In this document: positions 22,675 to 24,525 of the stretch, piece after piece
How positions within the stretch are numbered: position 1 is the stretch's first letter
Layout: the number at the start of each line of letters is the position of its first letter
Source of the DNA: Clostridiales bacterium
Lineage (GTDB): Bacteria; Bacillota; Clostridia; Oscillospirales; Oscillospiraceae
DNA length: 39,052 nt
Assembly: GCA_029267755.1 (NCBI GenBank)
Contig: JAJUHS010000006.1
Location: 1 to 39,052 of the forward strand
Reading direction: 5' to 3'
The notes under the pieces: generated by a model
The model's database searches: none
Seen by the model: only the letters and a program-made list of their open reading frames with translations
What the model was told of the DNA's origin: nothing
Position numbers and translations under genes: made by a program

Positions 22675-23436
22675 ATGGGCCATAATAAAACCATGGTTTT
22701 CGCTTTGGCCGGCACCTTTTTGGTTTTTTTAGCAGTAGCTCTGTTCTTGATTTTTTCCTACCGTTCGGAGCATACCGAGGAGGTTCTGCTGCCTGCGCCG
22801 GCAGTAACGGGAGATGCAAATTATCCTTCAGATCCGGGAAACTCCGATAATTCAGGCATAACCTCGTTGCAGGTGACAGTTGAAAATGCACAGGCCGTAA
22901 TAAGCACACTGAAGCGCCCTGAGAGCTTTTCTGAGGATATTGTTATAGAAACCGCATGGTCAGGGGGCAAGTCCAAGTTCGAGGTGTCAACGTGGTCAAG
23001 GAAGGGCACCGTCAGGACTTCAATCAAGCCTTCGGAATCGAAATATAAAAAGGAAGTTATATTAACGCAGGATATGCTTTACGTTTGGTACGACGGGGAA
23101 TCCCATTATTATTCGGGCAAACCGGGAAACGAAACCGCCGCCGACGATTATCAGATGATACCGACTTATGAGGATGTGCTTAAAATAAGCAAAACCCATA
23201 TCCTGGAGGCCGGTTTTGCGCAGAAAAACGACGAGCCCTGCATCTTCGTCAGGGCTCATGGAGAACTGGGATATACCGATATTTACTACATTTCAGTCGC
23301 CACCGGACTGCTCTACGCGGCCGAAAGCTATGACGGCGAAACGCTTATATACAGTATGACTGCCGCAAACGTATCGCTCGGCCCCCCTCCGGACGACAAA
23401 TTCGTTCTTCCGGATGGGAAGAGCGTTTTGTCGTAA
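22675..23436 (+). CDS. unknown membrane-anchored extracellular protein
   Basis: A 253-residue protein I do not recognise. One N-terminal helix (about residues 7-28, MVFALAGTFLVFLAVALFLIF) anchors it; a Pro/Ser/Asp-rich spacer (about 38-62) follows; the rest is rich in aromatic and alternating hydrophobic residues (LYVWYDGESHYYSG, DIYYISVATGLLYAAES), suggesting a beta-sheet domain outside the membrane. The overall pattern is reminiscent of LolA/LppX-like sheets, which is inference only. There are no catalytic motifs and a single cysteine in the outer domain. It follows mnaA by 47 bases with a GGGGAAGGGA ribosome site and ends the operon, so a cell-envelope role is plausible. Confidence 0.72.
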   Translation: MGHNKTMVFALAGTFLVFLAVALFLIFSYRSEHTEEVLLPAPAVTGDANYPSDPGNSDNSGITSLQVTVENAQAVISTLKRPESFSEDIVIETAWSGGKSKFEVSTWSRKGTVRTSIKPSESKYKKEVILTQDMLYVWYDGESHYYSGKPGNETAADDYQMIPTYEDVLKISKTHILEAGFAQKNDEPCIFVRAHGELGYTDIYYISVATGLLYAAESYDGETLIYSMTAANVSLGPPPDDKFVLPDGKSVLS

Positions 23437-23437
23437 A

Positions 23438-23482
23438 ATAATAGTACGCCAGCGGCGCTTTTAGCCGGTGGCGAACTATTAT
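23438..23482. terminator. large bidirectional hairpin between convergent operons
   Basis: Two 19-base arms (23438-23456 and 23464-23482, ATAATAGT...GGC and GCC...ACTATTAT) pair with few mismatches around a 7-base loop. It lies between the stop of the unknown membrane protein (plus) and the end of the three-gene minus operon. Ts follow the arm on the minus strand (TTATTTTAC), so it probably stops both transcripts. Confidence 0.7.
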
Positions 23483-23516: not shown

Positions 23517-23807
23517 CTACTTCATAAAAAGCATCACTGCAAGTATTATCAGGCATTCCTCGTCGCCGTTTTTCAGAAACAGCAGAAACAGTATCGTGAA
23601 AAGCATTATATCGCCAAAGTCCAGATCCTTTGGCAGAAATCCCAGCAACGACGAGAGCGGACTGCCGGATTCGGGAGCCGTGCGCTGAGCGTGCCGCTGC
23701 TGCGGCGGCGGCAGCGGATCATAGCCGCAGTTATTGCGGCGGCAGGGCTCGGACTTTGGCTCCGTCCTGCAATATTCCTTGCAGCGGCATGTATATCTGT
23801 TATACAT
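23517..23807 (-). CDS. Cys-rich small membrane protein of unknown function
   Basis: A 96-residue protein, last in a three-gene operon. The N-terminus holds five cysteines (Cys7, Cys9, Cys13, Cys22, Cys27) among basic residues, then a Pro/Gln-rich linker, then two short hydrophobic segments (IMLFTILFLLFL and CLIILAVMLFM) separated by an acidic turn (KNGDEE), which could form a small helical hairpin in the membrane. From memory, a Leu-rich pair of segments around an acidic turn is a recurring small-protein pattern in Clostridia; this was not checked. The start at 23807 has GGAGG 8 bases upstream, lying inside the end of the previous gene, which it overlaps by 8 bases. Function unknown. Confidence 0.68.
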   Translation of the reverse strand: MYNRYTCRCKEYCRTEPKSEPCRRNNCGYDPLPPPQQRHAQRTAPESGSPLSSLLGFLPKDLDFGDIMLFTILFLLFLKNGDEECLIILAVMLFMK

Positions 23808-24177
23808 TTCTTGAGCCTCCGAATTCGGGTATAACGTTTTTTGCAACCTTTGCAAGTTTTGCTATCTGCATAGCCTTATCGATTTTTTGACGCCTCTCAA
23901 TTTTTAAATAGGGCTTTATTGCCGCAATCAAAGCGGTTTTATCGCTTGGGGAGCTATACTCCTTAAGTACCGAACTTAGAATGCCCATTATCTGAGGGTC
24001 AAATCCCTCGGGGAAGCCGGAGCTGCCATGAGTATTAGGGTTTTCGCCCGGCTCCCTCTGAGGGCCGCTTTGGTTTTCGTTGCTTTCTCCTGAAAGGGAG
24101 CGGGCGAGCTTAATTATCTGCTCCAGGCTCTCAGGCGACTTCAGCAGATCATTTATTTTGTCCTCAAAATCTCCCAT
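23800..24177 (-). CDS. unknown soluble protein, middle gene of the three-gene operon
   Basis: A 125-residue soluble protein. The N-terminal part is helical and acidic (MGDFEDKINDLLKSPESLEQ), a disordered Ser/Asn/Gly/Pro-rich linker follows (about 33-58), and a basic helical C-terminus contains SDKTALIAAIKPYLKIERRQ and KIDKAMQIAKLAKVAKNV. A DKTALIxAIKPYL-ERRxKID core is familiar from uncharacterised clostridial proteins, as recalled and not searched. The ATG at 24177 has AAAGGTG 7 bases upstream; the in-frame GTG at 24186 is part of that ribosome site. Function unknown. The basic tail might contact nucleic acid or membrane phospholipid. Confidence 0.7.
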   Translation of the reverse strand: MGDFEDKINDLLKSPESLEQIIKLARSLSGESNENQSGPQREPGENPNTHGSSGFPEGFDPQIMGILSSVLKEYSSPSDKTALIAAIKPYLKIERRQKIDKAMQIAKLAKVAKNVIPEFGGSRNV

Positions 24178-24203
24178 ATTGCTCACCTTTCACAGAAAAA
24201 TTT

Positions 24204-24467
24204 TTACTTAAACATGTCGGAGATTTGTTTCGCAAGCCTTTGGCCTTCTTCTGTTTGGAGGACTGAGCTGAGGAGGCGCTGCAAATCGCCGGTGTCTCCG
24301 CTTTTCATGGCCTTGCGGACCAGATCGCTGTCGGCGAACTTCTCTTTTATGCGCTGCCCGTCTTCGGACATGGCAAGATTCTTCAGGTCGGGGACCTTTT
24401 CCGAGATTTTTGCGCTGTTCATTGCGTTCAGCATATCGATGGCAAGGCCTTCAAATTCATTATTCAT
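24204..24467 (-). CDS. unknown 87-residue helical protein, first gene of the three-gene operon
   Basis: A small, probably all-helical, charged protein without cysteines or membrane segments. Two stretches look like an internal repeat: MSEDGQRIKEKFADSDLVRK (about residues 33-52) and LQTEEGQRLAKQISDMF (about 70-86), both of the form (S/T)E-(D/E)GQR-(I/L). The middle has KSGDTGDLQRLLSSVL. GGAGG lies 7 bases before the ATG. It starts a tight minus-strand operon (26 bases to the next gene) and has its own promoter match. Function unknown. Confidence 0.7.
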   Translation of the reverse strand: MNNEFEGLAIDMLNAMNSAKISEKVPDLKNLAMSEDGQRIKEKFADSDLVRKAMKSGDTGDLQRLLSSVLQTEEGQRLAKQISDMFK

Positions 24468-24496: not shown

Positions 24497-24525
24497 AGTA
24501 TATTCAATCGGTCGGAAGAGGTGAA
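24497..24525 (-). promoter_or_regulatory. probable promoter of the three-gene unknown operon
   Basis: On the minus strand, TTCACC (24525-24520), a 17-base spacer and TATACT (24502-24497), 30 bases before the first ATG. The -35 box overlaps the ribosome site of the divergent phosphoesterase gene. Confidence 0.5.

Follow-up and report, generated by a model that had tools for sequence, protein, structure and literature searches.

Three small genes of no recognisable function lie close together on the minus strand of the stretch of DNA that we analysed (39,052 nucleotides, hereafter the window, on contig 18 of a 2.0-Mb genome that is 93% complete), and they raise the question of what such a gene set does for its host. 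A sequence-only reading had taken them for an operon with a promoter match and a shared terminator, and had supposed them to be a conserved but undescribed clostridial system. Our analysis provides good support, at the level of genome comparison, for the idea that these genes, here called A, B and C, are a real, conserved and so far unnamed sporulation operon; the link to sporulation is well supported, whereas the mechanism is something that we infer. The question has some weight, since what is known of spore assembly comes mainly from Bacillus subtilis and C. difficile, whereas most spore-forming bacteria of the animal gut are, like the source organism, relatives that have not been cultured or are hard to handle in the laboratory. 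With carriers in the majority of the sampled genomes of the order and in about half of those of the class, A-B-C would mark spore formation in metagenomes, and it would give a direct entry to the building of the spore surface in the form that passes between hosts. The features discussed below are the following:

24467-24204, minus strand: gene A, 87 amino acids, ATG start; charged helical protein with two DGQ/EGQ repeats
24177-23800, minus strand: gene B, 125 amino acids, ATG start; N-terminal helices (LxSPExMEQI), variable linker, conserved C-terminal region
23807-23517, minus strand: gene C, 96 amino acids, ATG start; starts with MYNRY, followed by a variable Pro-rich linker and, at the C-terminus, a short hydrophobic hairpin (DFGDIMLFTILFLLFLKNGDEECLIILAVMLFM)
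24497..24522, minus strand: putative sigmaK/sigmaE-type promoter, proposed from sequence; -35 AC at 24522-24521, 16-bp spacer, -10 AATATACT at 24504-24497
23438..23482, minus strand: terminator-like hairpin common to the operon and perhaps also used by the convergent gene, which has its end at 23436

Spread and order of the three genes

Ribosome-site-like GGAGG, AAGGTG and GGAGG precede the starts of A, B and C, respectively, and the overlap of B and C, when recounted, is 8 bp; the coordinates, the ribosome sites and the overlap that had been read from the letters thus all stand. In the comparison with four genomes of the same genus, codon position 3 was the most variable and position 2 the least variable in 12 of 12 comparisons of A, B and C, and the three frames therefore behave as genes. 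A terminator-like element was recovered as well, as a strong hairpin at 23482-23438: the 76-nt stretch that holds it folds with -24.5 kcal/mol (z -4.66), and none of 200 shuffles was equally good. Beyond it, a plus-strand gene (22675-23436) that is convergent with C encodes a 253-amino-acid protein that has a hydrophobic stretch at its N-terminus and matches no Pfam family, and look-alikes of this protein occur at the same place in L002, L004, L005, L010 and L024.

B is the most convenient guide to the spread of the locus. A search with the single sequence found it in 34 of 40 relatives, and a profile built for B matched 134 of 147 genomes of the order at one place each (seven genomes show two adjacent pieces) and 132 of 243 genomes of the class, where G363 and G396 are the only ones with matches at two separate places. 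Of 199 genomes sampled across the phylum, eight gave a match; two of these belong to the window's own family, and the match is weak in the other six. We read 104 of the loci (L031-L134), and B was present as an open reading frame in 103. By the thresholds set, a small open reading frame on the same strand lies directly upstream of B in 95 of the 103 and C directly downstream in 93, with some of the misses due to contig ends (L034, L051) or to a C below threshold that is visible by eye (L068, L076). When the C profile alone was run on the 243 whole genomes of the class, it matched 119, every one of them a B-bearing genome, and in all 119 C follows directly downstream of B, with both on one contig and one strand (median gap between the matches 56 bp, maximum 714); 27 of the 119 matched genomes had supplied the C model and 92 had not. 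There were 13 B-bearing genomes of the class with no C match. Among the genomes of the order that were tested for C, 8 of 13 B-bearing ones and none of 13 B-less ones had it. For A, the least conserved of the three proteins, the class-level sets A5 and A6 were chosen by position, while those for B and C were chosen with the order-level profiles, which makes comparisons that use the latter partly circular. The order-level A profile matched one class-level A set (92.8%, E 4e-7), and this first set matched the second (96.6%, E 6e-10); against our reading, however, the order-level profile compared only weakly with the second set (37.8%).

According to these matches, A-B-C is a single-copy locus in nearly all of its carriers and its order is conserved, which the earlier reading had proposed to test. 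Small adjacent genes, one of them with a hydrophobic hairpin, could also make up a membrane-peptide toxin-antitoxin or a phage-derived cassette. However, the presence once per genome in nearly all carriers, the depth of a class and the fixed order disfavour such a cassette already, no mobile-gene context was noticed in the loci read, and we regard this explanation as highly improbable. Nor could the proteins be placed in a known family: scans of Pfam (the window proteins and members of A1, A2, A3, A7 and A8) and of NCBIfam (the window proteins and members of A7 and A8) gave no consistent match, and the scattered hits to single members reached E 0.00094 at best. The supposition of a conserved, undescribed clostridial system is borne out by these results.

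Kept and lost with sporulation

A link to sporulation had been put forward for testing, and the distribution of B speaks for it. As markers of spore formation we searched for SpoIVA (PF09547) and GPR (PF03418), and we also searched for SigK/SigE. Among the 147 genomes of the order, 128 have SpoIVA and 128 have GPR. Eight genomes have neither of the two, and B is absent from six of these eight; the six are all at least 88% complete, and completeness is 55% and 62% for the two with B. The six marker-less genomes without B belong to three lineages. In genus g54, G076, G092, G106 and G131 have neither SpoIVA nor GPR nor B, and G058 keeps SpoIVA, GPR, B and C; the loss of sporulation in this genus is apparently recent. 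Similarly, in genus g50, G050 has lost SpoIVA, GPR and B, and G141 keeps all of these as well as C. The third lineage is represented by G162. On the other side, B is missing in 7 of 139 genomes of the order with at least one spore marker, and 12 genomes have B without SpoIVA, both of which count against the reading.

In the class, 127 genomes have B and SpoIVA, five B only (G207, G215, G238, G258 and G348), 56 SpoIVA only and 55 neither (Fisher p 1.5e-17, with genomes treated as independent and not corrected for kinship). SpoIVA is thus found in 127 of 132 genomes with B and in 56 of 111 without. Nearly every genome with B has SpoIVA as well, but in many spore-formers the profile does not detect a B: 56 of 183 SpoIVA-bearing genomes of the class lack a detectable B, whole families among them. 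As far as can be read from gene content, the distribution of B follows spore formation, but B is not universal among spore-formers.

The five genomes with B and no SpoIVA and the 56 with SpoIVA and no B would also suit a membrane complex of vegetative growth or general stress that is common in spore-forming lineages merely through shared ancestry rather than shared function. The neighbourhood of the operon points in the same direction, since the genes around it are mostly housekeeping genes that differ between lineages; among the best 25 of 581 families listed for the 121 flanking open reading frames, thioredoxin reductase came first (8) and type III pantothenate kinase second (6). Two loci have other company, which speaks for sporulation: in L158 the operon adjoins a convergent spoIIE, the phosphatase part of which matches the solved SpoIIE (E 4e-27), and in L121 it lies before a gene of the DUF1256 family, which is the YyaC family. 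A vegetative or stress role is, however, hard to bring together with the co-loss with sporulation inside genera g54 and g50 and with the enrichment of a mother-cell-type promoter described below, and we consider it quite improbable.

A mother-cell-type element upstream of A

The promoter match that had been proposed survives only in part. There is a promoter-like element upstream of A, but the sigma70-type match TTCACC-17-TATACT (24525-24497, 9/12) is at the level of chance, as the region has three such sites where 1.7 are expected (sd 1.7). A much better sigmaK/sigmaE-type element lies at the same place, and the sigma70 assignment was therefore replaced by one of the mother-cell type. The window's own element is ACCTCTTCCGACCGATTGAATATACT with a 16-base spacer, i. 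e. AC-N16-AATATACT at 24522-24497. Reading the DNA across loci, we found a recurrent (C/GA)ATATA(A/C)TG-like block upstream of A in the relatives. According to an excerpt of PMC3789822, sigmaE and sigmaK of C. difficile have a common -10 and differ in the -35, which is ATA for sigmaE and AC for sigmaK; a sigmaK promoter given there as an example is CATATAAT/AC.

We counted such elements in 96 windows around the starts of A (95 loci and the window), with 584 starts of open reading frames, spurious ones included, as the control. The strict sigmaK pattern AC-N16/17-CATANNNTA is present in 18 of the 96 windows (shuffle mean 0.6%; controls 4/584), and dropping the final A raises the number to 35 (shuffles 2.0%; controls 14/584). 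A relaxed version occurs in 60 windows (shuffles 13%; controls 67/584). When the -10 is taken as [AC]ATANNNT, 59 of 96 windows have AC at 16-17 bases as compared to 29 of 584 controls, and 22 of 96 have ATA, the sigmaE form of the -35, as compared to 25 of 584. Three observations count against this reading: the AC-type pattern is absent from 37 of the 96 windows, the -10 of the window is AATATACT rather than CATANNNT, and in many members of the order the AC box overlaps the ribosome site of the divergent gene. In the window, the latter is a gene for a YfcE-type metallophosphoesterase (PF12850; 24533-24985, plus strand). Of the 54 loci without a divergent gene able to supply the AC, 30 still have AC and 15 have ATA. 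Thus, the operon is preceded by a predicted sigmaK/sigmaE-type promoter that is strongly enriched across the relatives in silico.

The source genome has two candidate sigma factors. One scores 290 bits against the SigK model, just below the cut-off of 298.65, and lies beside a gene read as dpaA, which has AC-N17-AATAGAAT 29 bases before its start; the other adjoins a gene read as spoIIGA and was therefore taken as SigE. A scan of this genome for the element of the operon gave ten places and none in the reversed control. Several of the places are inside coding sequence, so that the element does not define a regulon alone. Besides the operon, by eye only one element is well placed before a gene of note: AC-N16-AATATACT lies 35 bases before an asparagine-synthetase-like gene (L141, contig 64 near 11268). 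B. subtilis has a sporulation-specific asparagine synthetase gene, asnO.

Since the locus is single-copy and conserved in order, is kept and lost with sporulation, and has a sigmaK/sigmaE-type promoter, A-B-C is very probably a sporulation gene set transcribed by mother-cell sigma factors. In an excerpt of PMC3789822, C. difficile is described to have an operon of similar design, with few small genes under a mother-cell promoter of the sigmaK type. We found no relation in sequence between that operon and A-B-C, which has no enzyme partner; moreover, of the three products of A-B-C one has a hydrophobic hairpin and two are helical, and their presence in the spore is putative. A keyword search of the literature, which had most subscription journals outside its scope, returned nothing that we recognised as the A-B-C module, which is weak evidence that the module is undescribed.

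The proteins and their possible place in the spore

A had been described as a charged helical protein with an internal repeat, and indeed the repeat (SEDGQRI.. / TEEGQRL..) is retained in the consensus of the family and the AlphaFold2 model has six helices (pLDDT 80.5, pTM 0.63); the conserved residues of A include GD and EG motifs. A Foldseek search of the PDB with this model, allowing E up to 10, gave four matches and none at or below 0.001. The helical YlbF/YmcA proteins (RicA/RicF, DUF964) are among these few (Foldseek E 7.3-9.8; VIA-align Z 2.1-3.0), at values too weak to be evidence of a kinship with A. The A profile also matched sequences of solved structures down to E 8e-6, namely designed helical proteins and the like, and we take these matches to reflect composition. 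The model of B is poor (pLDDT 65, pTM 0.28), and the B profile found nothing better than E 0.073 among the sequences of solved structures. In B, N-terminal helices with an SPE motif are joined to a conserved C-terminal region (DPxxM...LLxALKPYLxxxRxxKxDxAxxIAxLA); the linker between them is very variable in length, and P61, K88 and P89 are among the conserved residues.

C starts with MYNRY or a similar sequence (42 of 93 C proteins fit the pattern) and ends in two hydrophobic stretches of a median of 13 residues with a short acidic turn between them, a hairpin that was called in 89 of the 93. The window's C has the N-terminal cysteines and the hydrophobic hairpin ascribed to it before: five cysteines lie within residues 1-27, and each of the two hydrophobic stretches is about 12 residues long. 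The metal or disulfide chemistry that had been suggested on account of these cysteines has to be given up: 71 of the 93 C proteins have none in the first 45 residues, and the four that have at least three are all of the window's genus, while in a further relative (L158) three cysteines are at other positions. The stretches also fall short of the 18-20 residues or so that an integral membrane protein needs. They are too short for ordinary transmembrane helices, and membrane insertion itself is thus an assumption; a peripheral hairpin, a re-entrant hairpin and a packing element within a coat layer are all possible.

For A-B-C we propose the following role. The operon would be expressed late in sporulation, on the side of the mother cell, and C would insert its short hydrophobic hairpin into a membrane that faces the mother-cell cytoplasm; the likeliest candidate is the outer membrane of the forespore. 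From there, its disordered arm with the MYxRY tip would reach out, the helical proteins A and B could dock on C, and the resulting patch or layer may tie spore-envelope material to the forespore surface or help in maturation. That A-B-C helps to build the outer layers of the spore is probable, and one complex of the three proteins at a membrane, as envisaged from the gene layout, is plausible. The location at the forespore surface together with the tethering role is a tentative proposal, with the balance leaning somewhat against it; for the complete statement of a mother-cell sporulation operon with a location and mechanism of this kind, we see the chances as about even.

The hairpin of C would not have to be an anchor. 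A-B-C could encode structural or accessory proteins of the spore coat or crust that co-assemble in the mother-cell cytoplasm, with the hairpin as a packing or polymerisation element. The stretches of C with their polar turn are short for a bilayer, the maximum Kyte-Doolittle mean over 19 residues in the window's C is 1.55, and the mother-cell-type promoter fits a coat role equally well; moreover, at 18 of 60 class and phylum loci one or more additional small genes, whose products have two short hydrophobic stretches, lie upstream (counted by eye and with no control), as in an expanded structural set. However, none of the proteins matches a named coat family, and the conserved acidic residues of the turn (DxGD.., ..DEE) would also suit a re-entrant hairpin in a membrane. 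A coat role of this kind is therefore unlikely in our view, though it deserves to be taken seriously.

The forespore-surface proposal has a precedent in the membrane-to-coat base of the spore that is formed by SpoVM, SpoIVA and SipL, where a small peptide inserts into the membrane and works, on the side of the mother cell, with partners that are helical or soluble; the task that C would have is of the same kind. However, SpoVM is one short amphipathic helix, whereas in C a long arm is combined with two hydrophobic stretches, and the sigmaK-type promoter suggests a later time for A-B-C. It is tempting to speculate that A-B-C is the core of a spore-envelope scaffold specific for the Clostridia. 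Hairpins of the C type, which would have multiplied into arrays in some deeper lineages, would make up an unbroken layer within the outer forespore membrane or on its surface, and A and B would connect this layer to the coat. Such a scaffold would do part of the job of the SpoVM/SpoVID-type base in Bacillus, and it would have been overlooked because the proteins are small, fast-evolving and unnamed. We consider this wider idea improbable.

In the deeper lineages, arrays of small hydrophobic genes lie upstream of A or B in L075 (2592-3339), L076, L077, L093, L098, L104 and L112, with for example GDSSLLFFILVFLLLFY repeats; ten proteins from the array loci, nine of them small and hydrophobic, had no Pfam match above the cut-off. 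This suggests that C is part of a larger set of hairpin proteins there, perhaps hairpin spore proteins. In L075-L077 (family f43), the gene upstream of B is a different small hydrophobic protein, and a fusion of A and B looked likely by eye, but the A profiles reached only 5.6-9.4 bits at these loci, where the A3 profile had its match at rank 5 of 950 long open reading frames. Finally, the B open reading frame of L087 is 376 amino acids long and combines a B-like region, a hydrophobic stretch and apparently repeated units of the B C-terminus.
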